This document shows positions 9,431-51,622 of a stretch of DNA of 64,000 bases, piece after piece. The stretch's first letter is position 1; each line of letters begins with the position of its first letter. The notes beneath the pieces are model-generated. The model searched no databases, had not been told where the DNA came from, and saw only the letters and a program-made list of their open reading frames with translations. Origin of the DNA: Zygnema cylindricum (Eukaryota > Streptophyta > Zygnematophyceae > Zygnematales > Zygnemataceae); NCBI GenBank assembly GCA_037447655.1, contig JBBHKE010000622.1, positions 48,288-112,287 of the forward strand, in the 5' to 3' direction. Position numbers and translations under genes: made by a program.

Positions 9431-9880
9431 CTTATTTTTAGTGATGATATCAAGATTTTTGGTTGTAAACATTAAAAAAAGTTATATCTTCATTCGTACT
9501 GATATATAGTACACACTGAACCGTTTCGTAATTCTAAGAAGACATCAAATTGGTCGTTATCCTAGTAGGAGCTCTTTGAGTGTATGATAGTAGGACTTAG
9601 TTTATATTAAAGGAACATTTTTGTAAAAAAACTGTTGTTATGCTTTTGGCAATTTTGATTGAGAATTACTCTCAGATTTGTTGTCTTATTTGGCATGGTG
9701 TATCCCTGTGGTATCTTCGACCCTTTGTAGGGTTTGGGATATATTTTTTGTTCGTCTTATATTCCGTGATTGGTTGAATTTGTTTTTTAAATTGGTATCT
9801 TTTGAGAGGATTTTGCTTGTTTATGTCTAAAATGGCTACTGCATCATCATGTTTTACTGCACCAGTTTCCCTATGACAAC
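9431..9880. other. Intergenic, nothing recognised
   Basis: AT-rich sequence with no recognisable coding or repeat structure before the GAGTCCAAACTA array begins. Confidence 0.35.
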
Positions 9881-11380: not shown

Positions 11381-11383
11381 TTA

Positions 11384-11536
11384 AAAAGTAGGTGAAAGTA
11401 GGCCCATGTAATATGCCTATTGTATACAAAAAATACAATATGAACTTAAGACTCATATTGTATTCGGACCTATTCGCACCAATTAAAACATTCGGACCAA
11501 AAATTGGACCAATTAAAACATTTAGACCAAAATAAT
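11384..11536. mobile_element. Truncated hAT-type MITE
   Basis: Starts CCATAGTTAAAAAGTAGG and follows the 2956-3261 subfamily through the repeated ATTCGGACCAATTAAA, then breaks off. The opposite terminus is missing. The equivalent fragment is at about 17,480-17,637. Confidence 0.75.
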
Positions 11537-11538
11537 TC

Positions 11539-13450: not shown

Positions 13451-13685
13451 TTTCGGTTGCATCTAGTGTATTATATAAATGTATATGTGATGATGAAGAC
13501 GACACTATCACCACTTCTTGCTCATTTGCTTGGGTTACCATTTTCATCCTTGGCAGCAACTCTTATTTCTTATTTTTTAGGTGATATTAAGGTTTTGAAA
13601 TTATGTGGACCCTTAATAGAATTTGGGGTGCCAACCCTGCCTATTATATCAACAATCCACACAACGCTCAATCTGAACAAGATGA

Positions 13686-13974
13686 AGAAATGGAAAGGGT
13701 CGACGAGGAAATCGCATTTCCGACGACAAAGGGAGTGAGGCGGAAGTCGAAACCTCGGTTGACCTGGCGGCCATTGTGGAAGAGTTTTTTCCGTCCTCGC
13801 CCAATTCGAGAGGACGTGTTCCTCACAGGAAAGTTCAACATGTGTCGACTAAGGTAACACGGCTGCGAGTACAAAACTGGATGCTGAGGGATTGCGAAAA
13901 AAATGGGTCGAAAGAACTCATTCCAAGGACGTTGAGGAAGTTTCCCGAGCATTTTACCGGAGTCTACAATACAA
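13686..13974 (+). pseudogene. pogo-like transposase exon 1, copy A (orphaned)
   Basis: Equivalent of the exon at 19,787-20,075 in copy B. The frame includes a DNA-binding-like basic stretch (KVTRLRVQNWMLRDC) and ends at a consensus donor (CAA|GTAAGC). The remaining transposase exons are absent because copy A stops at the N gap, so as assembled this exon has no downstream partner of its own. Confidence 0.5.
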
Positions 13975-14533
13975 GTAAGCCATTTTAAACATACCTCATC
14001 CCATTAATTAAATGGTTTCGTCGCATCCTCCCGGTTTTTTTATTATTTCCATTCACAATGCGTTGTTTTATTTTATTATTGTTGTGCTTCTAAAGTGTTT
14101 GTACATTATTATGTTGGACCGCCGCCTTTCCTTCTCAATTTACATCCTAAGTTGTTATTAACTTGCCATTAGTGCGTGTTTTTTTATGTTGTCGGTTGGT
14201 ATGCATTGTCTTGTTATATTTTGGTATTATTTTCATCGTGTCCTACGATTTCCTTGTGGGGACAACGTATTAGCGACGAAGGGTCTTTGTCGCGGTGTAT
14301 GCGACGACATCGTGTCGTCGCTTCAATGATGGGTTCGACAAATTCATTACTGTATGAGGACGCCTCGTTTGGTCGAAAGTGCGAATGACCGACGACAGTG
14401 GTTCGTCGTTTCAACTAAACCACCGACGACATTAGTTCAGTCAATCCAACGTTGGTATACTCGAATGTAATTCGCGGGCGTCGACGTTGTTTCGTCAGTT
14501 CACTATTGGGAAACGCTAATATATTTGAACGCT

Positions 14534-14552
14534 CGACGACATTGTGTCGTCG
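14534..14552. repeat. TCGTCG hairpin in the pogo-like element
   Basis: CGACGACATTGTGTCGTCG, a perfect 8-bp inverted repeat with a 3-nt loop. In copy B the right arm has lost one match. One of several TCGTCG-core palindromes within the element. Confidence 0.65.
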
Positions 14553-14740
14553 CTTGGATGTCGGTTCTATAAGTTCGCAGGGCCAACGGTTAAATTTTCC
14601 GTCGGTGAATAGTTGTCTACGTTTTTACAGCAGCATGATCTAAGTAAAGGTCTGACCAAAAGTGTGTCTTTTAGGTTGTTTTTTTCTCCCTTAACTGTGT
14701 AATTACTTTGTTTCTCGGGAAGCAATTGTTTTTCTTCTCC

Positions 14741-15975
14741 ATGGAGGCCGGCTGACGACCATTCAAACGACTTCGCTTTGCCATTCAACGACGACATCGT
14801 CCACGACCAAATGAAACAGCGGTAGGGGGTCATATACTTAGAGGGAAGAACTTAGTGAGGGAAAGGGAGGCGCTTATAGAACAATTTAGGGAAGAAAGGG
14901 AGATAGCGGTAGGGGAGGATATTCAAAGAGAACGTGAGGAAAGGGCGGAACTGGTTAGGGAGAAGGAAATAGAGGGGGCGGAAGAATGGCAAGTTTGGAT
15001 GAGGAGGCGGTTGGGCATATGATACCGGGATCGGAGGTGGTAGTTCGAGAGAGGGAGGCAATCGGAGGAGTATTAGGGAATAGGGTTGAACCGGAGGAGG
15101 GTGGTGGGGAAAGTGTTGGAATGGAGTTAGTTTTGACGGAGGGGGAGGAATCGGGTGCTGAAATAGAGGCGATGGAGGAATCGGAGGCGGTGGGGAGGGA
15201 AGGGACAGGGACGGAGAGGGTAGTAAGGAGAAGTGTGCCGGAAGGGGGGGTTCCGGATGAAGGGGTTGGAGCCGAGGACGATGGTGTCCGCGAAGTAGAA
15301 GGGGGTAAGGAAGAAGACCAAGAATACAACCCCTCGGGAACCGCGTCGGACGAGCCTATAGAGGACGGGGAAGAGCCTACGGAAGAGGGGGAAGTGCTGG
15401 AAGAAACTGAATCGTCGGACATTCCGGTGACGAAATAGGAGGACGATCCGACAACCTCGGAGGAGCAATCTTCGGAGAGCTTGGAAAGGCGCATGGAGGA
15501 AAAATATGAAGACGAAGACGAGGTCGTTGCTTTTCCTCCTTCGCCGAACCGCAAAAGAGCTATCGTGGCGGTACAACCACCTCAAAATCCGGCCGACCAT
15601 GATGTTCCCGTTCGAGAGGAAGAACCCGATTGGTTTTTTCCGCCTCCCGTCAGAGATGAGGCCATGGATGGCTTTCGACCATCGGCGGCCCACTACATCC
15701 CGATCGAGGAGTGGCTGGACTATTGGCGTTATGGGGAGGCTCGGCCTCTCGTACGGAATTTGAGCCCCGTCCCGGAAATTCAAGACATCCCTCCGGATGT
15801 CCCCGCCCACCCAACATGGTTGTACATCGCATCGTACAACCATGCTTCAAATTTCCCTTACATAATGCATTTTCAGTCTAATGATGAACGTTTTACATGG
15901 ATTATACTTCAACCGATCGGATTCGAAATCGATGTGCCGGAATTAATGCGGCATTATCACCTTTGGGATCCACGG
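14741..15975 (+). pseudogene. Accessory coiled-coil ORF of the pogo-like element, copy A (broken, cut by gap)
   Basis: Same protein as at 20,842-22,371. Copy A carries a TGA at 14,753 where copy B has an Arg codon. It also has a one-base deletion near 14,990 (GCAAGT against GCAAAGT) and a TAG at 15,436-15,438 shared with copy B. The reading frame is then open to the N gap. The TGA at 21,148 in copy B is absent here. The shared TAG predates the duplication; the other lesions arose afterwards or are allelic. Confidence 0.7.
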
Positions 15976-15985
15976 NNNNNNNNNN
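15976..15985. other. Assembly gap (10 N)
   Basis: Ten N joining the end of copy A to sequence just left of copy B. It interrupts the accessory ORF after the motif YHLWDPR. Confidence 0.98.
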
Positions 15986-18900
15986 ACTATCGCTAAGCGT
16001 ATCAAAACTCAGATTGAATGTTAGAGCAAACCTTAAACTTAATCTGTGGTTGAACCTTAGATCAACTGCGGGGTGAAATCTGAGATCAAACCTTAGATAA
16101 TAAACTAGAGTCCAAACTAGAGTTCAAAGTGGTGTCCAAAATAGAGCCTTAACTAGGGTCCAAACTAGAGGTAAAACTAGAGAGTAGATTTGAATAAAAA
16201 CAGAGGTCCACATTGGATCCTGAAAAGTCCTAACTTGAGTGTTAAATAGAGTCTAAACTGGAGTGTTAAATAGAGTCTAAACTGGAGTCCGAACTAGAGT
16301 CCATAATAGATTCCAAACTAGAGTCTAAAGTGGGGCGTCAACTAGATTCCAAGTTGGTGTCTAATTCAAATTCCAAACGAGATTGTAAGTTAGACTCAAA
16401 ACTATGCGAATCGCTATCAACGTTAAGAATTAATTAGAGTAAAAATATAATTATTGTTATTCGTTGTATTTTGTTTTCAAGGCATTTCGCTAAGGAAGAT
16501 AACCTTTAAGTTATGCATTTATTTAATTTGGGTACATTGTTCCTATGGTGTAGCCGGTATAGCATGTATTCACATAGTTGATGTTTGTACAAACGAGAAC
16601 AAGTTAGCGTGATTTTTCCATGTCTTTAACTATGAGAATCAAATCTGAATGTTATTTCTTGTTTCGGCACACTCACTTTTGGGTGTGGGCGCCTTTGTCT
16701 AACACTTTTTTAATTGTATGAAATAAAAAGCAACTTTAGTGCCACCACTATCTAAAAACTGTCGAAATTATATTTTTTTACGTGAATCTAAAAGCCTATA
16801 TTAATGTAAAAAAACTATTAGAAGCCTATATTAATGTGAAAAAACTATTAGAGTTATTTCTTTATTTTAGGGTTGAGGGTCAAAATTTGGGGTAATCGAA
16901 TTAGCGTTATTAACGTTGATAACGATTAACGGTGTAGAGTCCAAACCAGAATCGATATTACAGCTCAAACTGGAGCCCAAACTAAAGTCCAAACTAGGTT
17001 CGAAACTAGAGTCCCATCTAGAGTTCAACTGGAATCAAAATTAAAGCCCCAACTAGATTCGAAAATCGAGTCCACTCTATAGTCTAAAATATTGTAAAAT
17101 TAGAGTACAAACAAGAGTTCAAACTAGAGTACAAACTGAAGTCGAAAGTAGAGACCAAACTAGAGCACAACTTATATTCCGTTCTACATTTCAAACTAGA
17201 GTCCAAACTGGAGTCGAAGCCCGAGACTAAAAATGGGTCCAAACTAGATTCTAAATTGGACTCCAAAATTCCAAACTAGAGTCAGAAAAAAAAACCAAAC
17301 TAGAATCCAAAATAGATTCAAATCTAGAGTTTATAATATATTCCAAACTAGAGTACAAACTAGAGTTCAAACAAAATTCCAAACTGGAGTCCAAACGGTC
17401 CAAGTTAGAGCCAAAATAGAGTCAAAATAAGAGTTCCAAATAGATTCCAAACAAGAGTCCAAACTAGAGTCCAAACCATAGTTAAAAAGTAGGTGAAAGT
17501 AGGCCCATGTAATATGCCTATTGTATGCAAAAAATACAATATGAACTTAAGACTCATATTGTATTCGGACCTATTCGGACCAATTAAAACATTCGGACCA
17601 AAAATTGGACCAATTAAAACATTTAGACCAAAATAATTCGTGTTGACTGTGGGTTACAGGTCAAAGCGCTCATCCAAAGAGTGCCGATGGCACTGTCGTA
17701 CGAGTCAAAACTTGCCACGTGTCACCCGCCACGTTGAGCTTTCATTTTTATCGATACGAAGTAAAGGGTTACAAATACTATACGAGTTCAAACTTTTCAA
17801 ATCCATTTCCGCCACATATGCAAAAAAACTTTCGCACGCTTTACCGACCATACTGTTTCCTACCGTACTATCCGCATCGCACAATTCACGCGAACGGATG
17901 TGGGCTATTGACGTCGTCGACACATGGCGACTCCACACATCCATTTGAACATATTCTCACAAGTGTGTTCACAATGAGCACAACGACAATGGTCGGCTAC
18001 ACCCGCCTTCATTTCCGTTACACTACACCGCGAATCGTTATTAGTGTCAAAATTTTAAAGTGTTGAAGAAAATATACCGTTATTGATGCTAATTAAGAAT
18101 TAAAAAAAAAAAAAAAGAAGTATTCTAATTTTGGCACTATGCTAATTTGGGAACAGCAAAAATGGAATATTTGCCGTACGATTATAAACAGTAATATATG
18201 AATCCGTACAAAATATTAGAAATCGTACACCGTCGTGAAATTTCAATATCCGTACATGTCAATACTACACCGTGAATCGTATTAGCGTATAGAAATTATT
18301 AGTGTATATAATGAATTAGTGTCATTTACGCTAATTTGTGTATCAATACCATTTTCAAAAAAATGTTTTATTGTAATTTCTCCATAACGCTGATTTGGGT
18401 ATACAGGATCCGTCGTTGTAGCATATACGGTAAAATAGGTAGAAGTACAAAATTTGACAATCCATACGACATGGCGTCTTTCCACTGTAAAAATCCATAA
18501 TTCTATTTTGGTTTGCGAATATACAATCATTACACCGTGTATAATTATACACTAAAATAGGTACGAGTAAAAACCGTCGAAATATACGGGTATGTGTACT
18601 TTCATTTAAGTTCATTCGTGACTCTAATAAGCGTTTGTTTCGCACGCGGTGAATATGATTACAGTAAAATAGGTGCGAGGACAACATAGGATAAAACGTA
18701 CATTGTCGCGTCATATAGTCGATTCTATGCTTCGGGACTGTAAAACACAATTATCTCATAAGGTTATGTAACCGTACAACTATAATACGTTCAATCATTT
18801 CAGTTTGTTATTGTGTGTAGAACGCAACTATAGCAACCAGCATTCCATGTTTATGTTTCGTTTCACATAACTTACAGTGAACCCAACGATTGATTTTAAT

Positions 18901-20112
18901 ATCGTTGTCGTACGCTGTGAGGACGACCGTTGTATGACGTTAAATATGGACCCTTAACCTTAATAAGGTGCCCAGAGGCTTGCTTTATTAGAATTAATGC
19001 ATTGTAATATTGGGACATAAGTGTATTAACGATACGTTTACTTAGATCAGACGTCGAACAAGCCTCTTATTAGTATCACTGTTAATTCTAATTGAACGTA
19101 AAACGAAGAAAAACCACTTATTAGGATACATGTTAATTCTAATTGGCGGTAATACTCCGACGAAAGATGATCAGTCTCCAGTGGAAGATTATCATTGGTT
19201 GTTGCCAAAAACACGTGGCTTGTTTACTATCCACGCATTCCTAAAGTTGGTCAGTTTTCGTACGTGACGTTAGAACAACCGTTTTTCGGGGTTACGACGG
19301 CGCATTTTTTCCCATCATCTTTTTGCCGTACGCACTGTAAGCTGGAGGTCTTTCCATGGCGGTGACAACATTTCATCGACGATGTCAGTTTTGAAATATT
19401 TTGCCAAATCGAAACATTTTTTACGTAATCCCGCTTCTATTCCCGCGTTTTTAAATTTTTAAAAATTGAAAGGCATAATAAAGTTCAAAATTTGAATTTT
19501 TAACAAATTTTTTAAAATGGCAAATCCCTCCATTTTTACAGCGAAATTAACTTTCGGTTGCATCTCGTGTATTATATAAATGTATTTGTGATGATGAAGA
19601 CGACACTATCACCACTTCTTCCTCATTTGCTTGGGTTACCATTTTCATCCTTTGCAGCAACTCTTATTTCTTATTTTTTAGGTGTTATTAAGGTTTTGAA
19701 ATTATGTGGACCCTTAATAGATTTTGGGGTGCCAACCTTACCTATTATATCAACAATCCACACAACGCTCAATCTGAACAAGATGAAGAAATGGAAAGGG
19801 TCGACGAGGAAATCGCATTTCCGACGACAAAGGGAGTGAGGCGGAAGTCGAAACCTCGGTTGACCCGGCGGCCATTGTGGAAGAGTTTTTTCCGTCCTCG
19901 CCCAATTCGAGAGGACGTGTTCCTCACAGGAAAGTTCAACATGTGTTGACTAAGGTAACACGGCTGCGAGTACAAAACTGGATGCTGAGGGATTGCGAAA
20001 AAAACGGGTCCAAAGAACTCATTCCAAGGACGTTGAGGAAGTTTCCCGAGCATTTTACCAGAGTCTACAATACAAGTAAGCCATTTTAAACATACCTCAT
20101 CCCATTTATTAA

Positions 20113-20430
20113 ATGGTTTCATCGCATCCTCCTGGTTTTTTTATTATTTCCATTCACAATGTGTTGTTTTATTTTATTATTGTTGTGCTTCTAAAGTGTT
20201 TGTACATTATTATGTTGGACCGCCGCCTTTCCTTCTCAATTTACATCCTAAGTTGTTATTACCTTGCCATTAGTGCGTGTTTTTTTATGTTGTCCGTTGG
20301 TATGCATTGTCTTGTTATATTTTGGTATTATTTTCATCGTGTCCTACGATTTCCTTGTGGGGACAACGTATTAGCGACGAAGGGTCTTTGTCGCGGTGTA
20401 TGCGACGACATCGTGTCGTCGCTTCAATGA
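20113..20430 (+). CDS. Small hydrophobic ORF in intron 1 of the pogo-like element
   Basis: Begins MVSSHPPGFFIISI, 37 nt after the exon 1 donor, and encodes about 105 residues with several hydrophobic stretches. Copy A has an in-frame TAA in the equivalent frame near 14,159. A diverged third copy on the minus strand (43,344 down to 43,126) keeps the frame open for about 66 codons (MVSSHPFIFAITSIYNVFF...) despite many substitutions. This could be a conserved membrane peptide, or simply AT-rich intron sequence without indels. No known family recognised. Confidence 0.25.
   Translation: MVSSHPPGFFIISIHNVLFYFIIVVLLKCLYIIMLDRRLSFSIYILSCYYLAISACFFMLSVGMHCLVIFWYYFHRVLRFPCGDNVLATKGLCRGVCDDIVSSLQ
20402..20422. 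repeat. TCGTCG hairpin in the pogo-like element
   Basis: GCGACGACA and TGTCGTCGC form 9-bp arms around a 3-nt loop. An identical copy lies in copy A at about 14,301-14,321. Confidence 0.7.
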
Positions 20431-20841
20431 TGGGTTCGACAAATTCATTACTGTATGAGGACGCCTCGTTTGGTCGAAAGTGCGAATGACCGACGACAGT
20501 GGTTCGTCGTTTCAACTAAACCACCGACGACATTAGTTCAGTCGATCCAACGTTGGTATACTCGAATGTAATTCGCGGGCGTCGACGTTGTTTCGTCAGT
20601 TCACTATTGGGAAACGCTAATATATTTGAACGCTCGACGACATTGTGTCGTCCCTTGGATGTCGGTTCTATAAGTTCGCAGGGCCAACGGTTAAATTTTC
20701 CGTCGGTGAATAGTTGTCTACGTTTTTACAGCAGCATGATCTAAGTAAAGGTCTGACCAAAAGTGTGTCTTTTAGGTTGTTTTTTTCTCCCTTAACTGTG
20801 TAATTACTTTGTTTCTCGGGAAGCAATTGTTTTTCTTCTCC

Positions 20842-22371
20842 ATGGAGGTCGGCCGACGACCATTCAAACGACTTCGCTTTGCCATTCAACGACGACATCG
20901 TCCACGACCAAATGAAACAGCGGTAGGGGGTCATATACCTAGAGGGAAGAACTTAGTGAGGGAAAGGGAGGCGGTTATAGAACAATTTAGGGAAGAAAGG
21001 GAGATAGCGGTAGGGGAGGATATTGAAAGAGAACGTGAGGAAGGGGCGGAACTGGTCAGGGAGAAGGAAATAGAGGGGGCGGAAGAAAGGCAAAGTTTGG
21101 ATGAGGAGGCGGTTGGGCATGAGATACCGGGAGCGGAGGTGGTAGTTTGAGAGAGGGAGGCAATCGGAGGAGTATTAGGGAATAGGGTTGAACCGGAGGA
21201 GGGTGGTGGGGAAAGTGTTGGAATGGAGTTAGTTTTGACGGAGGGCGAGGAATCGGGTGCCGAAATAGAGGCGATGGAGGAATCGGAGGCGGTGGGGAGG
21301 GAAGGGACGGGGACGGAGAGGGTAGTAAGGAGAAGTGTGCCGGAAGGGGGGGTTCCGTATGAAGGGGTTGGAGCCGAGGACGATGGTGTCCGCGAAGTAG
21401 AAGGGGGTAAGGAAGAAGACCAAGAATACAACCCCTCGGGAACTGCGTCGGACGAGCCTATAGAGGACGGGGAAGAGCCTACGGAAGAGGGGGAAGTGCT
21501 GGAAGAAACTGAATCGTCGGACATTCCGGTGACGAAATAGGAGGACGATCCGACAACCTCGGACGAGCAATCTTCGGAGAGCTTGGAAAGGCGCATGGAG
21601 GAAGAATATGAAGACGAAGACGAGGTCGTTGCTTTTCCTCCTTCGCCGAACCGCAAAAGAGCTATCGTGGCGGTACAACCACCTCAAAATCCGGCCGACC
21701 ATGATGTTCCCGTTCGAGAGGAAGAACCCGATTGGTTTTTTCCGCCTCCCGTCAGAGATGAGGCCATGGATGGCTTTCGACCATCGGCGGCCCACTACAT
21801 CCCGGTCGAGGAGTGGCCGGACTATTGGCGTTATGGGGAGGCTCGGCCTCTCGTACGGAATTTGAACCCCGTCCCGGAAATTCTAGACATCCCTCCGGAT
21901 GTCCCCGCCCACCCAACATGGTTGTACATCGCATCGTACAACCATGCTTCAAATTTCCCTTACATAATGCATTTTCAGTCTAATGATGAACGTTTTACAT
22001 GGATTATACTTCAACCGATCGGATTCGAAATCGATGTGCCGGAATTAATGCGGCATTATCACCTTTGGGATCCACGGTTATTCACCATTCTACGTCGTGC
22101 AACTCGTACTCCGGGGCTAAACGAATTTTTAGAGGCTCGAAGTGCGGTTTTACATCGCTTCCGAAATGTGCAAGTGAGGCGTACGTACCTTTGGGAAATT
22201 CCGAGGATCCTACATGTCGATGAGCCCCCTCCACCGCCGCAATTGGAGCAATTGAGGAATGAAGTTAAAAATCTCAATCGGCGGGTCGAGGCTCAAGAAT
22301 TAGCGATGAGAGAGGTTCGTCGCTTAATTAATAATCTCACGCGAGAGCTTGCAGGGATTAGGCGTCGCTGA
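20842..22371 (+). pseudogene. Accessory coiled-coil protein of the pogo-like element (two internal stops)
   Basis: One frame of 509 codons broken by TGA at 21,148 and TAG at 21,538. Order of parts: a basic N-terminus (RRPFKRLRFAIQRRHRPRP), a long Glu/Gly/Val-rich acidic region, the phrase QEYNPSG, a second acidic block, a basic patch PNRKRA, then a folded-looking central domain with PDWFFPPPV, EEWPDYW, IPPDVPAHPTW and YHLWDPRLFTILRR. The end is a predicted coiled coil (LEQLRNEVKNLNRRVEAQEL...). The central motifs and the overall order recur in the gypsy ORF at 28,329-29,573, so this is a protein family and not noise. It lies between the first and second transposase exons on the same strand. 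Family and function are unknown to me. Basic ends plus coiled coil suggest a nuclear, oligomerising nucleic-acid binder, which is inference. Confidence 0.7.
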
Positions 22372-22882
22372 TGCGAGATGATGAAGGTCAATTTCATGGC
22401 CTTCATTCGACAGAGAGGTATCCCGATTTCTCCCTCACCCTACATTGCATGTCCCAATGTTTTGTTTGTTTTTTATTTTTTCCATACGTGTATAAATTTA
22501 ATATATCTCTTCCATTTTCTAGCCTTGTGAATGTAAATTAATTTTTAACTCTTACCTTTGGATTTGCTGATGTCGGCATTGTGTTTGATCGTTCTCGTTC
22601 CCGGTTTAACGACGAGACAGGGTTGTCGCTGAACTGTGGAATTTTCATTGGTGGTCGGCAAACGACTACGCATCAACGTCGTTTACGAAAAAAAATGTCA
22701 ATTCGTTGATTTAACGACGACTTTCTGTCGTCCCTAAATCAACGAGAGTAGCACTTCGTCGCGAAATATTCCCGCATCTCTTTCTTGTCACTTTAATTTG
22801 CTATATTGCTTACCATTGTGACTAATGAAGTGACACATATAATGAAAATCATTTAATATTTTACATTGTGTATTGTGTACAG
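22372..22882. other. End of presumed intron 1 of the pogo-like transposase
   Basis: No coding frame. Contains more TCGTCG-type inverted repeats near 22,610-22,760 and ends in a pyrimidine-poor but usable acceptor (TTGTGTACAG). Confidence 0.5.
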
Positions 22883-24772
22883 AGTATCAAAAGGCCAAGC
22901 GATGGTGGATAAAGAGGAGGAATACGCTTGACGGAATACGAGAGACAACTCGGACATTCTCTTGTTCTAGTTTCAGGAGGAGATCGGTGGCGGTTACCAA
23001 TGCTTTGCCGGGACGAGGAAGGAAGGAAGCCGCTTGGGTGACAGTTATACATGAAGAGTTACTTTTCGATTTTGAACGTTTTAAGAAAGCGGGTATGAAG
23101 ATGTCCACCACAATTCTCGGGGACATTGCTAGCGACATTATAAGAGAAAGGAGGAAAGAATACGGACCAGAATGGTTCAACAAAGACGGGTCGGAAATAC
23201 ACCCGGTAATAAATAAAAGGTGGGTGCAAAGGTGTCAAGAGAAGCACAACATCGTTGTGCGGGCACAAAAGGGTAAACTACAATGCTCACCCGAGAAAGA
23301 GGAATACATTGAGCGTACCGTGGCCTTCCACATGGGCGTGCTGAAGCGAGGGTTTGAATCCGGTGAGTCACTATACATTATAAAAATATTATAATGATGG
23401 TTCCTTTTTTTGAAATATGTTTTGTTTTGGTTGTATTCCCTACTTAACAACATATACTAAAAAAGTATGAAATTTGTTTGTTTTGGTTTGCCGTTTCATG
23501 TATACTAGGAATTTTCAACGAAGACCTAGTGGAAAACATGGATGAAACACACATGATCGTCAACACCGACAATGGAAAGACTTTGGGATTTCGAGGCGAT
23601 GATGTGGTGAAATACGCCAACGTCGCGGGAGGAGGTGAATCCATAACTCTCATGGTGCGAATAACTGGTGGGGTGAACGTTCGTATCGAAAACTCGATGA
23701 TAATTTTTGCAAATCGTGCGAGGAGTTACCCGATATACGGTTTACCGGACACCGTCCCGGGTGAGTTTTTTCTCCCAAATAAAATGTTTTCATTTTTATT
23801 TTGATGTATGTTTGTCTTTGATGAAGGTCTCTCTATTTGTCTCTATTTCATTTTTTGTGTCTAATCTTATATGTATATCTCTCTACTTCTCCCTCTCATA
23901 CCTCCTCCCTCTCTCTCCCACTACAAATTTACGTTATTTTCATTCATTAACTCTCTAACTTCTCTTATCTCAAACAATGACTCCTATGACAAGCTACCTA
24001 TGGTACACGTAGATTACTTTCCCCATAAGGCAAATTTACGCAAGCAAAATAAAAGTTAATTTTGTCTTCTTTTTGTTGATTTTTTATCTTTTCAGGCGTT
24101 TGTTACCGGACCGGTTCAAAGGGTTGGAACAACAAAACAATGTTCCCACAGTGGTTCGAAGAGACAAGGTCATATCAAGGGGAATGGGAAGGACGACAAA
24201 AAATCATATTTTTGGATAACTGTGGAGGTCATAATACGTCCGATGAGTTCGAGCGAGTCCTAGAGGCCAAAAACACTATTTTACACTATTTTCCACCTCA
24301 TGCTACGCATCTTGTTCAACAAGCGGACTCTTTTGTCATCTCTAAAATCAAGGACGTGTGGAGCCGTATATGGGACAGCTAGAAGGCGAAAGGAATTGAA
24401 ACCAGGCAATGGGGTAAACCTTCAAGCCGTGGATGGTCAGAAAAATTGGTGGGACCCGGTAAAGCATTTTTTCTAAAATTGGCACGGGATTCTACCCGAG
24501 AGGTTAACGCAATGCGAGACAAAAACAAGATGAGTTATGCGCGAAAAAGAATGATTCAATGTGGTCTGTCTTTACGTGACGGACATAGGGAAGAAGACAT
24601 GCTCACACATCAATTGCAAGACATAATCACCAAGTATCCCAACCATTTCGAATGAGAGGTTGTGGAACCTCATTGCCCAAGGGCAAGAGAATTCCTCCGA
24701 AATATTGAAGATGCCGACAGTCAGCAAGATAGCATTTTCAGCGAGGGAGGGATGAGCGGCAACGAGTTTTAA

Positions 24773-25126
24773 AGATATAATATAACTACGTATTCATTTT
24801 TTTTGTTTTAAATGTCAGTTTGAGAATGGTAGTTTAATTATAGCGGGAGTAGTAGTCATACTCCTGGCAGATTAATGTAGACTGTCCATGAAGTTTAGTA
24901 TTAATTCACTTCTTGGGAAAAAAACAAATTTTATATGTGTGTATGGTTTTATTATGGGATAATACAATTTTGGTATTTCTGAAGTTTACATGTTTGGCTT
25001 AATGTGGAATTGGATGTATTTATAAAAATTATTATGTATTTACCTTGAGATGATGTTAATGTGGTGTTAAATATTTGAGTGTAGCATGGAATTATATATA
25101 TTGCTGCATTGTACAACCTAAACTAA
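24773..25126. other. 3' flank of the pogo-like element
   Basis: AT-rich and non-coding, probably the transposon 3' untranslated end. No terminal inverted repeat could be matched to the 5' side. Confidence 0.4.
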
Positions 25127-25153
25127 TCAGCGACGAGTATACTTCGTCGCTGA
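25127..25153. repeat. Perfect 10-bp hairpin at the pogo/gypsy junction
   Basis: TCAGCGACGA and TCGTCGCTGA flank the loop GTATACT. It carries the same TCGTCG core as the internal hairpins and lies about 40 bases before the first recognisable gypsy codons, so it may mark the transposon end. Confidence 0.7.
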
Positions 25154-25189
25154 TCCATCATCCATCGAGGAAGTTCATAATTTTTACAT

Positions 25190-28020
25190 AGTACCGAGCG
25201 CTTAACAAGTTAACGGTCAAGAATGCGTACCCTTTACCGAGAATAGACGAATTGCTAGACCGACTTTGAGGTGCTAAATATTTCTCAAAGATAGATCTGC
25301 GGAGCGGTTATCACCAGATTAGAATTGCCGAGGAGGATGTGGAAAAGATAGCATTTAGAACTCAGTATGGCCATTTCCAGTTTCGGGTAATGCCGTTCGG
25401 GTTAACCAATGCACCGGCGACTTTTATGCATCTGATGAACTCCATCTTTCGATCATATCTGGGTGCGTTTGTAATCGTCTTTCTAGACGACATCTTGGTG
25501 TATAGCGGAACGCTGGAGGATCACATGAAGCACTTACGAACGGTCCTACAAGTCCTTCGGGAAAATAGGTTGTACGCAAAGAGGAGCAAATGTGACTTAT
25601 TGAAAGAGAAAATTGATTTTTTGGGCCATGTGGTGAGCCGGGACGGAATCGCAGTGGATCCGAACAAAACAAGGGCAGTGAAAGAGTGGCCGCAACCGAT
25701 GAACATTACGGAATTACGGAACTTTCTGGGATTATGCTTCTACTATCGACGTTTTGTTGAAGGTTTCGCCAAAATCGCTACACCACTCACGGAATTACTT
25801 AAGAATGACACGCCCTACGAGTGGAAATCGGCGCAAGGGGCAGCTTTTAACACGCTAAAGGAATGGTTGGTTACCGCCCCTGTGTTAGCTGTTCCCGACC
25901 CGGATTTACCTTGGACGATAATTACAGACGCCAGCGATACAGCTATTTGAGCAATCCTTATGCATGATCAAGGAAAAGGCGTACAACCCATTACCTACGA
26001 CAGTCGAAAACTAAAGGCAGCGGAGCTTAACTGGGCCACCCATGAAAAGGAGACAATTGCAATAATCAATGCGCTAGAGGTTTGGAAATGTTACGTTCAA
26101 GGGAAGCGGATCACATGTATCACGGATCACCACGCCCTGCAGTACCTACAAACACAGCCAAAATTGTCCAAGAAACAAGTGCGCTGGATGACGTTTCTCT
26201 AGACCTTCGGGCCGGAACTTGTCATTGAATATAAGCCGGGCAAGACAACCCAGCAGATGTAATGTCGAGAAGACCCGGAGTCGCTGCTACAGTGGCGGAG
26301 CACCGATCGCAAACATCACAAGAAGTCGATGTTAGCTCTGTGAAAGAGAACACCGCAGCGGCGGCCACAGCGTAAGATTCGAAACTCAGCGCAATCACCA
26401 GTACGGTGCAAGTGGACGAGCAATGGCTAAGTATAATCAAGGCAGCATATGACGAGGACGATACATTAAAAGAACTGATAAAACGGAAGGTATTGGTTCG
26501 GACCGCCAAATGTATGTGGCGATACCGACCAAGTCAAACAACGAGACTTTACGTACCGACAAACCAGGAGCTATGTCGTTCGATACTGAAATTAAGTCAT
26601 GATGAACCACTCTGTGGACGCTTCGACCGCGATTGAACAACCGCACGTGTAGCTGAGGCGTATTATTGGCCAAACATGACTTGCAACATTGCGGAGTATG
26701 TCCAAACGTGTGACTCTTGTAACAGAAACAAAGCGGAATCGGGTCACCAGGGTCTGTTACAACCACTTCCGATACCATCTATTATTTGGGAAGCGATTTC
26801 GATGGACTTCATCGTTGCTCTCCCGTTATCCAGGGAAGGTTATGACTCTATTTTCGTCGTCGTGGATTGCTTGACAATAATGGCTCATTTCTTACCCACG
26901 ACAACCACCGCCACAACGCGAGATGTAGCAGACTTATTCTTTTGGGAGATATTCCGCCATCACGGACTCCCAAAGAGGATCGTCAGCGACCAAGATCGGA
27001 AATTTGTGAGTCACTTTTGGAGAGGTCTGTATGCGCTATGTGGAACGCAGCTGGCGATGTCCACAGCTTACCACCCTCAAACGGATGGTCAAACTGAAAC
27101 GGTGAATTGGACTTTGAAGGAGGCGTTACGGGCTTATGTTTCGGTGCACCAAACGGATTGGGTAAACCATCTAATAGCGATTGAGGTGGCGTACAACAGT
27201 GCGGCGCACTTGTCCACGAATGCTACGCCATTCTCCCTCAACGGACGACAGCCCACTCTTCCCCAAAACTTATTCGTCGTGGACTGCCCTACACCGACAG
27301 CTATGGATTTTGCCACAACGTTGCAAGGGAACCAAGAAAACGCGGCGAAAGGCGCTCCAGCTGGCAAAGGATTGTCAAAAGTCGCAAGCTGACTCTCAGC
27401 GGAAGGAAACCGTTTTTCACGTGGGTGATAGGGTTCGCCTTAATATGGCAAACCTCTCCTTACCGGGCGCCCTCTCTAAGAAATTGGCACCGAAATTCAC
27501 GCGCATATTCACAATTCTGTCACGTGTGGGAGAGGTGGTTTATAAGATGGATATTCCGACGGAGTGGCATATCCACAATGTCTTCCTTGTTTCCCTACTT
27601 AAACCATTCATAGACCCTGATTCGATGTTTCCTAATCGACGGCAAAATACTCCTTTGCCCCCCGTTCACGGTACCTCGGACGAGTATGAGGTGGAGGATA
27701 TCTTTCAGTCACGCCGCTCTCGGAATTCCAACTCCAGACAGTATCTAGTGCGTTGGAAGGGCTACGGCGTTGAGGACGACTCTTGGGTGAACAAGGGGGA
27801 TCTGCATTCTCGTGAGTTGTTGCGTTGGTTTCAGAAGAGTGAGGACACTCAACTTCACCGGAGGGGCAATCGGAGCGGCCGCGGTAAAGGAACGAATCGC
27901 AGTGTCGCAACCTTTGCAATTATATTGGGGACGCCGCGAAGAAACGCAACGACGATGTTACCTCACTTCGGCGATACAGCGGCGCAGTCACCGCAGCGCA
28001 GCATGGATACCGTACCATGA
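25190..28020 (+). pseudogene. gypsy pol: reverse transcriptase, RNase H, integrase, chromodomain (disrupted)
   Basis: Reverse transcriptase reads from YRALNKLTVKNAYPLP, through [15 protein letters not shown], to the catalytic FLDDILVYS. RNase H follows (TDASDTAI, then ITDHHALQYL). Integrase has a damaged HHCC zinc finger (CDSCNRNK present, second His unclear), catalytic MDF and VSDQDRKF, and the Glu in GQTET. After a frameshift near 27,385 the C-terminal part ends in a chromodomain (EYEVEDIFQSR... YLVRWKGYGVEDDSWV), which in chromoviruses targets integration to marked chromatin. In-frame stops occur at about 25,267, 25,948, 26,200 and 26,634. The element is therefore inactive. No gag or protease is present. 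Confidence 0.85.
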
Positions 28021-28328
28021 GAGGAACGCAGCAACACCGCTGCGCTGATAGGAAAGCGCAATGGCGCAATTGTGTTTAACCACATTGGTGACAAGGAACC
28101 CTTGGTTTCGCCACAGCATCGCAGTTTTAAAAATGTTGGAGGCTGCGATACCCTCGCACACTACGACGCGTCACAGAGTCCAAATGTGAAACCCTCAACC
28201 CTCTGTAACAAAGCCGCCAACCGCCTTTGCGCCCTGTTTAGTCTAGGCAGCTTAGAGAGTGCTTCACTCTGCACAGCCAGCTTACCCTTCCTTATGCACT
28301 ACCAGAATTATCCGACGCCACAACATCC

Positions 28329-29573
28329 ATGGCATCGTTGTCTTCTCCACCGCCAAAAAGACGGAGACTGGTACGAGTAGGGCGAGGTGATGTACCCCGC
28401 CCGCATAGATTGTTAGAGGCAGCAGAGGCCATGGTAGAGGTAGGTAGGAGGAGGGAGGAGGTGGTAGTTGTTGAACCAAAGGAGACAGCTAGTAGCGGGG
28501 CAGGGCCAGCGGAGACCAGCAGAAAAAAGGGGTCAGAAAATTCACAAGACCCCGAGTACAACCCACTCCAAGAAGGGGATCAGGAGGATGAGGAAGACCA
28601 TGTGATTTCGGATGCGGAGGAACCGGAACGGGAACCGACACCCCCGCAAATTGAGGAGCGTGCCTCCGACCTGGAGGTGATGAGGGACCCTAATAACGAG
28701 AGCACCGCGGACGAGCAGCCCTTGGAAAGCTCGGAGAAGAAGGCGGAAGCACAATACCCTAGCGGAGACAAGGTATTTCTCCTCGGAAGGGAAAGAGGGG
28801 ACACAAACGGGGAAAGTGAGCGGGAAGAAGAAACCCCCGATTATCTCTTTCCATCTCCTATCGACACTCGGCAACCGGACCCTACTTTCAGCTTCGCCAA
28901 GCGCCTGTACAAGGACCCTTCGGAGTGGCGTGCAACCTGGCGCACAGGAAAACGTGGGGACCCCATCTATATCCCCGCCGTCGTGCCGTCACACCCAGCC
29001 TGGAATTTATTGAGAACGAAAGACCTGGGGAACAACCATAAGGGTTACGTACAACTAAACCCTCATGCCCTGCCATTTGTGGAAGTAGTCGAAGAGCACT
29101 ATCGGTACAGGGTGCATGTTCTCGGGTTACCCCGTCGTTACCACCCGTGGGATATTCGTCTGCATGGCATCATCTCTCGGGTGGAGGTTACACCCGAGGT
29201 ACGGGCACTCAAGATGGCCCGGAAGAACGCTCTGCAGCGGGCCCGAGCCGCTAGGAAACACATCTCCTTCAAATTAAGGAAAGTACCGTAGTGGGAACCG
29301 GCAGAGGGGGTAGCATATAGGGCACAGCAAGCCGAGGAACCTGAAGCTGCCCAAGCCTCGGCACCCGAAGAATCTGCACCGGCAGCCATTCCAGTGCAAC
29401 CTGCGGCAGGAGCAGAGGCACCGGAGGAAGGGGAGGATCGGGTTCGGGAGCAAATCACTCGGAGACGTTTGGCAGCAGCGGATCACTATATTACGCTGCT
29501 GGAGACTCGTTGTGAGCAGCTCCAACACCAACTTGACACCCTACGACAGGAATTCGAGGAGTACTGTGAGTAG
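28329..29573 (+). pseudogene. Accessory coiled-coil protein in post-pol position of the gypsy element (one internal stop)
   Basis: ATG at 28,329 opens a frame interrupted by TAG at 29,289 and continuing to TAG at 29,571, 414 codons in all. Order: basic N-terminus (PPPKRRRLVRVGRG), Glu-rich acidic region with PEYNPLQEGD, central domain with PDYLFPSPI, SEWRATW, IPAVVPSHPAW and YHPWDIRLHGIISR. An Ala/Glu/Pro-rich linker follows, then a C-terminal coiled coil (LETRCEQLQHQLDTLRQEFEE). The motif order matches the pogo-associated ORF at 20,842-22,371. The position, after the chromodomain and before the 3' LTR on the same strand, is where retroelements place env-like or other extra ORFs, but I see no signal peptide or membrane segment. 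The family is unknown to me. Confidence 0.75.
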
Positions 29574-29653
29574 ACATACGGCATGCTCCGGAAATTAAAG
29601 TTTCCCTCAGGAAACAAAGTTCAGCGGGACGATGAATCCTTAGTGGGACGCAC

Positions 29654-30050
29654 TGTAACAGGGTTACAAGGTTGGGAACTTAGTGGCTAGAAACTCGGCT
29701 GCAATAGTTGCGATTGCAGAGCAGTGCAGCTGCGATTCTAGATTAGCGCAACATAGGAGCATAGCAACTTGGTAGAATAACGTAGCGCAGCATTGCAACG
29801 CAGCGTAGCAGTATAGCAACGCCGCAGAATGTAGATTTTACCGTATAGTTCTAGAAAAATATTGTGGATAGATCTCGGTTGACCGCGAAGGTCCACATGT
29901 ACATTTGTACACTATTGGGTTGACTAGCAGTTAGTTAGTTTATATAGTGAGACAGACGTAGTACGAGACTGACTCTTTGAGTAGACCCTCGCAGCGTGTG
30001 TTGAATATTGTAATCCTCTCTTGAGTAATAAAGCGCCATCTTGTCTGTCA
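29654..30050 (+). repeat. Candidate gypsy 3' LTR
   Basis: Starts TGTAACAGGGTTACAAGG after a purine-rich tract. It contains a polyadenylation-type AATAAA at 30,027-30,032 and a TATATAGTG promoter-like motif near 29,942. The end is uncertain; a CA near 30,051 is one option. Confidence 0.5.
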
Positions 30051-30249
30051 CAGCTGTGTGCACCTGTTGTTGCTACGGGAGGATCCTTGGAGCTTTCCGT
30101 TGTGCATTTCTGGTGTATTGTGGTGCCTATAATTCCTGCCTCTTTTACACTTTGCTGAGATCTCGGTTCAAGCTTTGGTCACTAAATGTAGTGACTATGA
30201 ATGCCTTGTGGGATAGGACGTTATATTTCGTGTAGGGGGTGGAGTTGAC

Positions 30250-31620
30250 ATGCACGATCAGACATTTTGTTATAGGCCCACTAACTTCTTGGAACGCAAA
30301 ATCTGCATTCCGCTAATTTCCGTTAGGAAGTCCATGCCTATTATGGCAAATTTGGCCACATCCATGCTTGCATTTTCAGGGAATTTGGTGGGGGCCGAAA
30401 TATTTCATTCATTGCCAGCAGAAGAAATTCTTCCCGATAGTTCTTACTTACCAAAAATTTTCACTAACCCAGGTTTTCTTATAGATACGAGGGAATTTGA
30501 CCGTATCTATATCCAAACCTTGTCAATTCCACTTTCTCCAGCCTCTCTTACAATCCTAGTCCCTATAGACTCTTTTGGGTTTCTTCCCATTAATTGGAAT
30601 CTGGTCTAATTGGAACCTCATCCAAATGGATTGGTGATTTTGGACCTTTTTGCTGGAATAGGCACTTCCCTCTTTGCATGTTTGCGGAATGGATTATTAA
30701 ACTAATTTTATTAGTCGGTTGAGATTGATCCGTTAGCACGGAAAGCAAAATTACATCATTGTAATGTGTTACATTCCCTATACCCGCATTTGTTACCAAA
30801 ATCCGCATACAAGCATATGCATATCGCCCTCCCACAAGACATCCGGATTGTGGGCAACCATCACTTATAGGATATTGGTCCAATAGATCTACTTTTTGGC
30901 GGATGGGGGTGCCAAGGAATGTCTCGGGCGGGGAAAGGTCTCGGATTAGCCGATCCCTACACCAAAATATTTTTTTGAATTGATCCGCATCCTACATTTT
31001 CTACAAACTTTAGATCATCCTATGGGGTATATCTTGGAAAATGTCGCAGCCTATAATGATCCAAGACCTACAGTCTTGGCTGATTATCAACGGATTGAAC
31101 AATTAATTGGTCCGCCTCTTATTATTTACGCGGCTCGCCATGGTTCACTAGCACACCGGGTTCGCTCCAAATGGACGAACCTGATCGATATTGGTAGACT
31201 ACGTGAGGCCAATTTGTTAGTTCGTCCTCCTCTTAGAGACATTCAGGCTGCCATTCTTCCTTTCCATAAGGTGCAGCCTTGCATTCAAAAGTACTGTCCC
31301 CCTAATTTCATTGTCAATTTCCTAGGTCAACCTCTCAAGGTGCTTCCTACCTTAGTTTCTTACCCACATTCACATGCATTCTCTAATGACGGTCCAAGGG
31401 ACTACATTTAAATTTTTACTCTTTTTTTTTTTCCAATTCCACCAGTCTCGGAGATCTTTATCTACGATTTCCTCAATCCTAGCCAAATGTCTTGGTCTAT
31501 TCCCGAATACACGGCTGTCCAGTTTACAAGTCCCATGCATATTCCATCCACTCCTCATTGGAGTGCTGCTTTTCCAACACGCATTTGGAATCATTCGGTT
31601 AATTGCCTTATTTAGACACT
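30250..31620 (+). pseudogene. DNMT3-like cytosine-5 DNA methyltransferase remnant
   Basis: Conserved C5-methyltransferase motifs occur in order. Motif I is VILDLFAGIGTSLFACL (about 30,633). A motif II-like acidic turn is VEIDPLARKA. Motif IV is GGWGCQGMSRAGKG (about 30,898), where the catalytic Cys is kept but the usual preceding Pro is Gly. Motif VI is ILENVAAYN (about 31,031). A motif VIII-like part is ARHGSLAHRVRSKWTNL, then LPTLVSYPHSHAF. Another frame after 31,430 reads like a C-terminal segment (SQMSWSIPEYTAV). Stops at about 30,607, 30,703, 30,712 and 30,868, and frameshifts near 30,976 and 31,400, make it non-functional. The sequence upstream (30,250-30,606) is open but unrecognised. 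The spacing between motifs IV and VI and the AHRxRxxW motif fit the DNMT3/DRM side more than DNMT1. It sits just outside the gypsy LTR; capture of such enzymes by retroelements is known in charophyte algae and dinoflagellates. Confidence 0.75.
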
Positions 31621-31994: not shown

Positions 31995-32099
31995 TGATCT
32001 TCTCTCCCAACCATCACCACCCTACCCCGCCCCCCCACCCCTATTTATCCTTGGGGAATTTAACGCCCCCCATCTCACCCCCCCCTCCCTCCACCCGCC
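31995..32099 (-). repeat. C-rich tract at the left border of the 71-bp array
   Basis: Pyrimidine-rich on the plus strand, with several runs of six or more C. It gives an abrupt purine/pyrimidine strand switch where the G-rich array begins. Confidence 0.75.
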
Positions 32100-35000
32100 T
32101 GATTTGGGGAAGAGGGAGAGGGAAAGTAGGGGGAAAGGGAGGATTTTTGGGAGAGAGGGAGGGAAAGGGCAGATTTGGGGAAAAAGGAGAGGGAAAGGAG
32201 GGGGAAAGGAAGGATTCTTGGGAGAGGGGGATGGAAAGGGCAGATTTGGTGAAGAGGGAGAGGGAAGGTAGGGGGAAAAGGAGGATTTTTGGGAGAGATA
32301 GAGGGAGAGGGCAGATTTGGGGAAGAAGGAGAGGGGTAGTAGGGGGGAAAGGGAGGAATTTTGGGAGAGGGTGAGGGAAAGGGCAGATATGGGGAAGAGG
32401 AAGAGGGAAAGAAGGGGGAAAAGGGAGGATTTTTGGGAGAGGGGGAGGGAAAGGGCAGATTTGGGGAAGAGGGAGGGGGAAAGTGGGGAAAGGGAGGATT
32501 TTTGGGAGAGAGGGAGGGAAAGGGCAGATTTGGGAAGAGGGAGAGTGAAAGAAGGGAAAAGGAAAGATTTTTGGAAGAGAGGAAGGGAAAGAGCAGATTT
32601 GAGGAAGAGGGAGAGGGAAAGTAGGGGCAATGGGAGGATTTTTGGGAGAGAGGGAGGGAGAGGGCAGATTTGGGGAAGAAGGGGAGGGAAAGTAGGGGGA
32701 AAGGGAGGATTTTGGGAGAGGGGGAGGGAAAGAGCAAATTTGGGGAAGAGGGAGAGGGAAAGTAGGGGGAAAGGGAGGATTTTTGGGAGAGAGGGTGGGA
32801 AAGGGCAGATTTGGGGAAGGAGAGGGAAAAGAGGGGGAAAGGGAGGAAGTTTGAGAGAGAGGGAGGAAAGGGGCAGATTTGGGGAAGAAGGAGAGGGAAC
32901 GTAGGGGAAAGGGAGGATTTTTGGGATAGGGTGAGGGAAAGGACAGATATGGGGCAGAGGGATAGGGAAAGAAGGGGAAAAGGGAGGATTTTTGGGAGAG
33001 GTGGAGGGAAAGGGCAGATTTGGGGAAGAGGGAGAGGGAAAGTAGGGGGAAAGGGATGATTTTTGGGAGAGGGGGATGGAAAGGGTAGATTTGGGGAAGA
33101 GGGAGAGGGAAAGTGGGGTGAAAGGGAGGATTTTTGGGAGAGGGGGAGGGAAAGGGCAGATTTGGGGAAGAGGGAGAGGGATTGGAGGGAGAAAGGGAAG
33201 ATTTTTTGGGAAAGAGGGTGGGGAAAGGGCAGATTTGGGAAAGAAAGAGAGGGAAAGTAGGGAGAAGGGAGGATTTTTTGGGAGAGGGAGGGAAAGGGCA
33301 TATTTGGGGAAGAAGGAGAGGGAAAGTAGGGAGAAAGGAAGGATTCTTCGGAGAGGGGGATGAAAAGGGCAGACTTGGGGAAGAGGAGAGGGAAAGTAGG
33401 GGGAAAGGGAGGATATTTGGGAGAGAGGGAGGGATAGGGCAGATTTGGGGAAGATGCAGAGGGAAATGAGGGGAAAGGTAGGATTTTTGGGAGAGAGGGA
33501 GGGTAAGGTCAGATTTGTGGAAGAGGGAGAGGGAAAGTAGGGGGAAAGGGGGATTTTTGGAGAGAGGGAAGGATAGGGCAGATTTGGGGAAGAAGGAGAG
33601 GGAAAGGAGGGGAAAGGGAGGATTTTTGGGAGAGAGGGAGGGAAAGGGCAGATTTAGGGAAGAGGAAGAGGGAAAGTAGGAGGAAAGGGAGGATTTTGGG
33701 TGAAGAGGGAGGAAGAGGGCAGATTTCAGGAAGAGGGCGAGGGAAATGATGGGGAAAGGGAGGATTTTTGGGAGAGGATGAAGGAACGGACAGATATGGG
33801 GAAGAGGGAGAGGGAAAGAAGGGGGAAAGGGAGGATTTTTGGGAGAGAGGGAGGAAAAGGGCAGATTCGAGAAAGAAGGAGAGGGGAAGTACGGGGAAAG
33901 GGAGGATTTTTGGGAGAGGGAAAGGGAAAGTAGGGGGAAAGGGCGGATTTTGGGAGAGAGGGAAGGATAGGGCAGATTTGGGGAAGAAGGAGAGGGAAAG
34001 GAGGGGAAAGGATAGATTTTTGGGAGACAGGAAGGGAGAGGGCAGATTTGGGGAATACGGAGAGGGAAAGTAGGGGGAAAGGGAGGATTTTTGGAAGAGA
34101 GGGTGGGGAAAGGGCCAGATTTGGGGAAGAAGGAGAGGGAAAGGAGGGGGAAAGGGAGGATTTTTGAGTGAGTGGGAGGAAAAGGGCAGATTTGGGAAAG
34201 GAGAGGGAAAGTACGGGGAAAGGTAGGATTTTTGGGAGAGATGGAGGTAGAGGGCAGATTTGGGGGAGAAGGAGATGGAAAGTAGGGGAAAGGGAGGATT
34301 TTTGGGATAGGGTGAGGGAAAGGCAGATATGGGGAATAGGGAGATGGGAAAGAAGGGGAAAAGGGAGGATTTTGGGAGGGGGGGAGGGAAAGGGCAGATT
34401 TGGGGAAGAAGGAGAGGGAAAGTACGGCGAAAGGGAGGAGTTTTGGGAGAGGGGGGATGGAAAGGGCAGATTTGGGGAAGAGTGAGAGGGAAAGTAGGGG
34501 GAAAGGGATGATTTTTGGGAGAGATGGAGGGAGAGGGAAGATTTGGGGAAGAAGGAGAGGGAAAGTTGGGGGGAAAGGAAGGATTTTTGGGAGTGGGGGA
34601 GGGAAAGGGCAGATTTGGGGAAGAGGGAGAGGGATAGGAGGGAGAAAGGAAAGATTTTTTGGAAAGAGGGAGGGAAAGGGCAGATTTGGGGAAGAAGGAG
34701 AGGGAAAGTAAGGAGAAAGGGAGGATTTTTAGGAGAGGGGAATGGAAAGGGCAGATTTGGGGAAGAGGGAGAGGGAAAGTAGGGGGAAAGGGAGGATTTT
34801 TGGAAGAGGGGTAGGGAAAGGGCAGATTTGGGGAAGAGGGAGAGGGATAGGAGGGGGAAATGGAGGATTTTTTGGGAGAGAGGGAGGGAAAGGGCAGATT
34901 TGGGGAAGAAGGAGAGGGAAAGTAAGGAGAAAGGAAGGATTCTTGGAAGAGGGGGATGAAAAGGGCAGACTTGGGGAAGAGGGAGAGGAAACTTAGGGGG

Positions 35001-43358: not shown

Positions 43359-43387
43359 AAGGTATGACTAAAATAGCTTAATTTTGC

Positions 43388-43985: not shown

Positions 43986-44022
43986 TGAGTGATTCTTCAC
44001 TTGTTCAAACAAAGGCAATATT

Positions 44023-47125: not shown

Positions 47126-47130
47126 CGTCA

Positions 47131-47199
47131 CTTGTGGTCCCTCGCGAATCACGCTTGTGGTCCCTTGTGAATAACGCTTGTGGTCCCAGGTGAATCGCG
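47131..47199 (+). repeat. 23-bp tandem repeat, three units
   Basis: Three consecutive units beginning CTTGTGGTCCC and ending in GAATCACG/GAATAACG/GAATCGCG. No gene association seen. Confidence 0.75.
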
Positions 47200-51580: not shown

Positions 51581-51608
51581 GCGCTCCCTCTCTATCTCCG
51601 AAGCACTA

Positions 51609-51620: not shown

Positions 51621-51622
51621 AT

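Follow-up and report, generated by a model that had tools for sequence, protein, structure and literature searches.

The plant mobile domain (PMD) is a non-enzymatic domain present in Ty3/gypsy elements and in Mutator-like elements (MULEs); according to the accessible text of the source, its class II carriers are MULEs with PMD-transposase fusions, derived from host genes (PMC5418596). Together with Transposase_28, it is also listed among the extra-ORF domains of Ogre and Retand in the accessible part of Neumann et al. (PMC6317226). Here we describe a 64,000-nucleotide stretch of the Zygnema cylindricum genome (contig JBBHKE010000622.1, positions 48,288 to 112,287, forward strand; hereafter the window), in which two related open reading frames (ORFs), ORF-A and ORF-B, occur in a pogo-like DNA transposon and in a gypsy retrotransposon of the chromovirus type, respectively. 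The two almost certainly represent one protein family with a conserved core of ~150 amino acids (aa), a selected component of two unrelated mobile elements in one genome. The original prediction held that non-enzymatic genes are rarely shared across classes; the PMD is a published exception to that statement (PMC5418596, as far as accessible), and such sharing is therefore known in kind. This family and its carriers differ. Unlike in the PMD case, class II is represented by a pogo-like element whose intron houses a stand-alone ORF, and gypsy by a chromovirus. The PMD profile PF10536 found no match in A and B (E up to 0.1), in A, B and A′, a second window copy of ORF-A (E up to 5), or in 15 members of the core family (E up to 1). 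Among the titles and abstract openings of open-licence literature, we found no such shared accessory gene and no second ORF in a pogo element.

The relationship between the two proteins is remote but significant. By BLASTP they share 27% identity over 205 columns, and their Smith-Waterman score of 175, against a shuffled mean of 42, corresponds to a p value of about 2e-12. Shuffling in 20-residue blocks, which keeps local composition, gives p of about 3e-9, and the core alone gives 3e-12. By profile comparison with hhalign, two A copies matched ORF-B at E 9e-12, and a 15-member A core profile matched it with a probability of 98.9 and E 1.7e-17 over 140 columns, bearing out the prediction of one family held by a class II and a class I element. 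The predicted common order of parts was borne out in sequence for the core and the acidic stretch just before it, to which significant similarity is limited; the N-terminal half (p 0.02) and the C-terminal tail (p 0.35) are of the same type in both proteins, with unclear likeness in sequence. At the DNA level almost no similarity is left (best local nucleotide score 20); hence the protein stayed conserved as similarity at synonymous sites was lost. Pfam had nothing at its cut-off for any of A, A′, B and the 15 members of the core family, and the core could define a new domain; weak matches of A below the cut-off were to coiled coils, such as MetOD2 (E 0.008) and TSKS (E 0.012). In the PDB, small profiles found nothing and the 15-member profile reached E 0.25 at best (thyroid receptor and similar), which we take as noise. 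Viral contigs held no relatives of A, B, the profile or transposase exons 4 and 2, and prokaryotic genome contigs none of the profile. Rfam and tRNA searches gave no match.

To place the family in its genomic setting, we searched the 352.8-Mb assembly (2689 contigs) from which the window derives. The assembly holds at least 141 matches to A, at 47–100% identity (140 of 1370 candidates scored), and at least 125 to B, at 68–100% identity (125 of 2034 candidates scored); many of these copies have stayed open. We then read 20 of the 141 A loci, 9.9 kb each, from several identity tiers and favouring open copies (the match is free of stops in 18 of 20), eight further short A loci (L001–L008, L001 being the window copy), and 12 of the 125 B loci, about 5.5 kb each (11 without stops in the match). 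At 18 of the 20 long loci, A has transposase exons beside it on the same strand: 13 loci have exon 1 before it and exon 2 after it, and five have downstream exons only; L018 and L021 have no transposase exon beside A. Among the short loci, exon 2 follows A in seven of eight, and L002 has none within its stretch. Integrase and chromodomain lie just upstream of B on the same strand at all 12 loci, with reverse transcriptase (RT) as well at 11. Each ORF is thus tied to its own element at nearly every locus read (18/20 and 12/12), as had been proposed. Within the window, no gypsy sequence surrounds A and no pogo sequence surrounds B. The A core and exon 2 have similar identities tier by tier (88/91% in L009, 63/57% in L015 and 54/62% in L023), which suggests that A and the transposase exons diverged in step with each other. 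At every one of the 20 A loci, the B-to-A core identity is 27–35%; since B is about equally far from all A lineages, a transfer between classes, or a dual capture, would predate the divergence of A. In L018, two same-strand A-family copies (4706–5164 and 9320–9778) lie 4.6 kb apart with no transposase exon within the 9.9 kb, possibly a tandem, non-autonomous or host-resident arrangement.

Both cores bear the mark of purifying selection. For A, 21 pairs were compared for the ratio of non-synonymous to synonymous substitution rates (dN/dS), and 13 gave values; the remaining eight comprised five of unequal length and three whose synonymous sites were identical or saturated. With the window copy left aside, nine of 12 pairs fell between 0.09 and 0.26. 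For B, the median was 0.17 with a range of 0.06–1.2 (23 of 28 pairs, from eight of the 12 loci). The window copies themselves have decayed, and neither interval is the single open frame first described (Table 1); the in-frame stops still number only two in ORF-A against 20.7 expected, and one in ORF-B against 15.1.

The predicted intronic position of ORF-A was confirmed: the transposase gene has four exons that join in frame over three GT-AG introns, and ORF-A sits in the first of these. Exon 4 encodes a DDE_1 domain (PF03184, E 2e-11), and the spliced frame, by eye, contains the DDxD triad as D(ENMDETH), D(FLDNCGGH) and D(QQAD), with 36 residues between the last two. The 5′ terminus of the element, derived from ten copies, reads CAGTACACCG or CACTACACCG, then GAATCGTTATTAG-like sequence, and falls at window position 18021; we take this CAG-type terminus to be pogo-like. 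A TA directly precedes it in three of the ten copies (L010, L023 and L024) and in the window copy, by eye, and not in the others. Towards the 3′ end, pogo copies align past the limit of the fetched stretches. The window copy stops at ~25190, and since other copies extend further it looks 3′-truncated there. Insertion of the transposon into the chromovirus at 25190 is unsupported, with no terminal inverted repeat at the junction and no chromovirus 5′ half found. A 224-bp stretch at 63277–63500, resembling a miniature inverted-repeat transposable element, carries both inverted termini of the family. The DDE_1 transposase, and a CAG-type terminus adjoining TA in some copies, are shared with described pogo-like Tc1/mariner elements, which differ from the present one with its long gene, three introns and accessory ORF in intron 1 (PMC7325037, as far as accessible). 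The accessible text of that paper uses ‘second ORF’ once, for ciliate Tec elements, and ‘intron’ and ‘accessory’ never.

The intronic gene almost certainly encodes a stand-alone protein of 446–668 aa, as judged from long open frames in other copies. Counted from the first methionine, these are 446 aa in L009–L012 and L014, 509 in L004, 602 in L002 and 668 in L023, where a later methionine may be the true start; the 605-aa frame of L016 has a stop in the core. By eye, the A protein comprises a basic start (like ME..RPFKR.R), an acidic N-terminal half, the core, a proline-rich linker and a C-terminal coiled coil. The first 30 residues have a net charge of +7 in A and +6 in B and are followed by strongly acidic sequence. 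The acidic half of A varies in length and contains repeated peptide modules in varying copy number (L016, L023 and L027, by eye). In L028 (4402–5238), an exon-1 transposase match leads straight into the A frame; this could result from a deletion, or exon 1 could be naturally joined to the accessory protein by fusion or splicing.

The chromovirus assignment rests on RT, integrase and then chromodomain in the window, and on the same domains at the other B loci. By Pfam, the pol frame of the window encodes RT, integrase, SH3 and chromodomain, and ORF-B starts ~310 nt past the pol stop. Homology downstream of B ends at window positions 30108–30157 in all 12 other copies, which marks the end of the element near 30157. 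As to the predicted placement of ORF-B between chromodomain and 3′ long terminal repeat (LTR), the putative 3′ LTR has no partner within the window, but the shared limit of homology fits an element end there. That ORF-B is a separate ORF holds for only part of the copies; in others it is the C-terminal part of the Pol frame. L033 and L034 have a single open frame of at least 1424 aa running from RT through integrase and chromodomain to B, and L035 has a 971-aa frame from integrase to B. A motif test with gapless alignment places chromodomain and B in one frame at nine of 12 loci, failing for L031, L033 and L036, and with L033 counted through its open frame the number is ten of 12. The path from chromodomain to B core is free of stops in five of 12 (L029, L033, L034, L035 and L037), and L038 has one stop beyond the linker, within B. 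The simplest reading is that B is a fused C-terminal domain of Pol. Grande and Retand likewise contain additional coding sequence that separates integrase from the 3′ LTR and in some cases includes a transposase-named domain, but Retand is a non-chromovirus with its Transposase_28 ORF in antisense, whereas here the part is in sense and, in some copies, in the Pol frame after the chromodomain (PMC7264820 and PMC11963269, accessible parts).

The transposon contains a further feature that bears on function. A 19-bp palindrome, CGACGA-N7-TCGTCG, was picked after being noticed in intron 1; with up to two mismatches it occurs 18 times in the window against 0.91 expected. Without the duplicated unit, 12 remain: eight in intron 1 outside ORF-A, two within ORF-A, one at 25131 and one in the chromovirus. 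All 28 A loci have an exact palindrome in the A interval, which at loci without a recognised exon was delimited by set distances from the core, and 15 of the 20 long loci have exact copies 3′ of the transposase gene too. The periods of the tandem arrays are about 117 bp in L004, 107 bp in L012, 56 bp in L015 and 29 bp in L022, and this difference between lineages suggests that the motif multiplied separately in each. An altered form occurs in a distant minus-strand pogo copy at 41986–41800. We infer that the A protein may bind these palindromes.

VANDALs, which are MULE-type elements of Arabidopsis, offer a parallel. Their accessory protein VANC binds motif arrays and removes silencing marks (PMC5735166, PMC10398659; accessible parts of both, here and below). 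As in the present element, the arrays consist of short motifs in non-coding parts, introns included, and evolve by tandem repetition, and the protein has conserved and variable regions, the latter with repeated peptide modules (PMC5735166, PMC10398659). VANDAL motifs, however, have 8–9 bases in one orientation and differ between families (PMC5735166, PMC10398659), whereas the 19-bp palindrome here is kept across lineages with proteins about 50% identical; an anti-silencing role would be drawn by analogy.

A helper preserved by selection in both elements probably serves a need common to both inside the nucleus, and non-enzymatic genes common to transposon classes point to common jobs, such as coping with silencing or reaching chromatin. 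We speculate that the protein, with its basic N-terminus, acidic region, core and coiled coil, could be a self-associating nuclear adaptor that acts on the DNA or chromatin of its own element. In the transposon, the palindrome arrays that surround its gene would attract it, and it would hold the promoter and the transposase gene open or oppose silencing, much as VANC does. In the chromovirus, the integrase-chromodomain would carry B along, and B would work either at the integration complex or at the newly inserted element; its position behind the chromodomain suggests action with integrase on chromatin. Taken as a whole, a shared selected family with such an adaptor mechanism is the explanation that we favour by a little, while its mechanistic part, taken alone, is somewhat less likely than not. 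Still more speculatively, and in our view doubtfully, the family may be an undescribed chromatin- or DNA-targeting module that moved between classes and was adapted anew in each, serving as a palindrome-array reader that defeats silencing in pogo and as a director or protector of insertions in the chromovirus. If so, one genome would harbour two unrelated parasites equipped with the same tool against a single host defence. Since the family is abundant, selected in both carriers and, in one of them, paired with candidate cis sites, the question is directly testable.

Several observations weigh against the adaptor reading. The exact palindrome is missing from all 12 B loci, and around ORF-B there is no clear motif cluster, the only candidate being CGCAGC, found seven times and at the limit of shuffles. 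A shared DNA target is therefore unlikely; if A and B both bind DNA, they would use different sequences, or B would rely on the address given by the chromodomain. Exact palindromes are found 3′ of the transposase gene as well, and the binder could therefore be the transposase itself. Two AlphaFold2 models had a mean predicted local distance difference test (pLDDT) score of 44 and 40, with the coiled coil as the sole confident part and the core not modelled. As to selection, three A core pairs were less constrained (dN/dS 0.34, 0.40 and 0.69) and a pair including the window copy gave 0.74. ORF-A and A′ differ by five synonymous and 18 non-synonymous changes (pN/pS 1.04, in terms of proportions of sites), as under neutral decay, and the preference for open copies in choosing loci favours low dN/dS. 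In the chromovirus, median dN/dS is 0.6 for the chromodomain-B linker, 0.19 for the B N-terminus and 0.13 for the rest of B; the linker has one stop in L030 and two shared by L032, L039 and L040, and match coordinates indicate a frame change within the chromodomain of L031 and L036. With a linker so weakly constrained and broken, B may be translated separately in some lineages, from the ATG at 28329.

The protein might instead be a transposition co-factor, binding the palindromes as architectural sites and helping the transposase to pair the ends, and in the chromovirus helping integrase to multimerise. Subterminal-repeat binders assist end pairing in other DNA transposons, and the coiled coil of the ORF-A model, the suitability of palindromic sites for a dimer, the exact sites 3′ of the transposase gene and the attachment of B behind the integrase-chromodomain in Pol would all fit. 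However, no exact site lies between the 5′ terminus and exon 1 in the ten copies with a located terminus, and an array period that varies by lineage is a better fit to a regulatory target than to an end structure; we consider this role rather unlikely. A factor for nuclear import or assembly common to both elements, with a nuclear localisation signal in the basic N-terminus and a core that attaches to a carrier of the host or to an enzyme of the element itself, would suit the basic-then-acidic charge profile, and one plant LTR element, Grande, has a known nuclear accessory protein, GENE23 (PMC7264820, in its accessible part). It leaves the palindrome arrays unexplained, and we judge it distinctly improbable.

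The presence of the family in both carriers could also follow from two captures of the same host gene family, without transfer between elements. The near-equal distance of B from all A lineages would agree with this, though it does not show direction. Yet 18 of the 20 long A loci and all 12 B loci sit inside elements, and no clear host copy emerged among the 32 of 266 listed matches read with wide flanks, of which L018 and L021 lack a transposase exon; we regard separate captures as somewhat unlikely. Finally, the distance between the two ORFs is 6 kb, and the surrounding repeats are nested and interrupted by N gaps, a setting where nesting could create a false association. The linkage is nevertheless conserved at the other loci, and in the window itself neither ORF is surrounded by sequence of the other's carrier. 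Chance similarity of low-complexity ORFs, for its part, is ruled out by the shuffles, block shuffling included, and by the profile comparison, and artefacts of either kind have a practically negligible probability.

Table 1. Features of the pogo-like transposon and the chromovirus in window coordinates.
Feature	Position	Strand	Remarks
Unit 1 equivalent of 5′ terminal inverted repeat	11921-11943		2 mismatches
Second ORF-A copy (A′)	14741..15975	+	own frameshift and stop; cut by 10-N gap
5′ terminal inverted repeat, pogo-like element unit 2	18021..18044	+	adjoins TA; terminus from comparing 10 copies; 1 mismatch
Transposase exon 1 as read here, N-terminal part apparently damaged	19787..20075	+	in-frame splice to exon 2
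Transposase intron 1 (GT-AG)	20076..22882	+	holds ORF-A
Cluster of 5 palindromes upstream of ORF-A	20375..20653	+	
ORF-A, accessory protein, decayed copy	20842..22371	+	stops 21148, 21538; open copies elsewhere
Conserved ORF-A core (EPDW ... YHPWD)	21718..22180	+	
ORF-A C-terminal coiled coil	22240..22368	+	AlphaFold2 helix, residues 233-275 of open piece, block pLDDT 73-85
Cluster of 3 palindromes downstream of ORF-A	22610..22733	+	
Transposase exons 2-4, DDE_1	22883..24775 (22883-23362, 23509-23760, 24096-24775)	+	stops 24380, 24655
Exact palindrome downstream of transposase gene	25131..25149	+	
Chromovirus reverse transcriptase	25192..25947	+	PF00078 E 1.5e-30 for 25270-25947; 5′-truncated at pogo junction
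Chromovirus integrase	26637..27389	+	PF17921 E 3e-9; PF00665 E 3e-7, slightly under cut-off
Chromodomain	27685..27837	+	PF00385 E 3e-9
ORF-B, ORF-A relative, after chromodomain	28329..29573	+	stop 29289
3′ non-coding part and putative 3′ LTR, element end	29574..30157	+	

The two ORF-A copies of the window belong to tandem 6-kb units (10003–15975 and 16102–22077) that are 97.9% identical and joined at a 10-N gap (15976–15985), so they are not independent evidence. The units are possibly haplotypes laid end to end, or an assembly effect. A second 10-N gap (835–844) is flanked on both sides by a perfect 99-bp repeat.

Just outside the chromovirus end lies a decayed C-5 cytosine DNA methyltransferase (DNMT; 30610–31408, plus strand), with PF00145 matching a 35-aa piece at E 1.5e-4, just under the cut-off, and the next piece weakly similar to DNMT3A (E 0.08). 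DNMTs in a charophyte gypsy element have been published (PMC5890265, accessible part). Here, a DNMT as part of the chromovirus is unsupported: it is absent from all 12 other copies (~1.2 kb of 3′ flank), and the element ends before it.

Further downstream, a G-rich minisatellite extends over 9.5 kb (32097–41610); its repeat unit measures about 71 bp, and its strands differ very strongly in composition (GC skew up to 0.92). On the minus strand, a copia-like element (43384–47135; by eye, with gag-like frames and an LTR pair 87.9% alike) adjoins an intron-1-like stretch of a diverged pogo copy, and a second copia-like element lies on the same strand at about 47778–51631.

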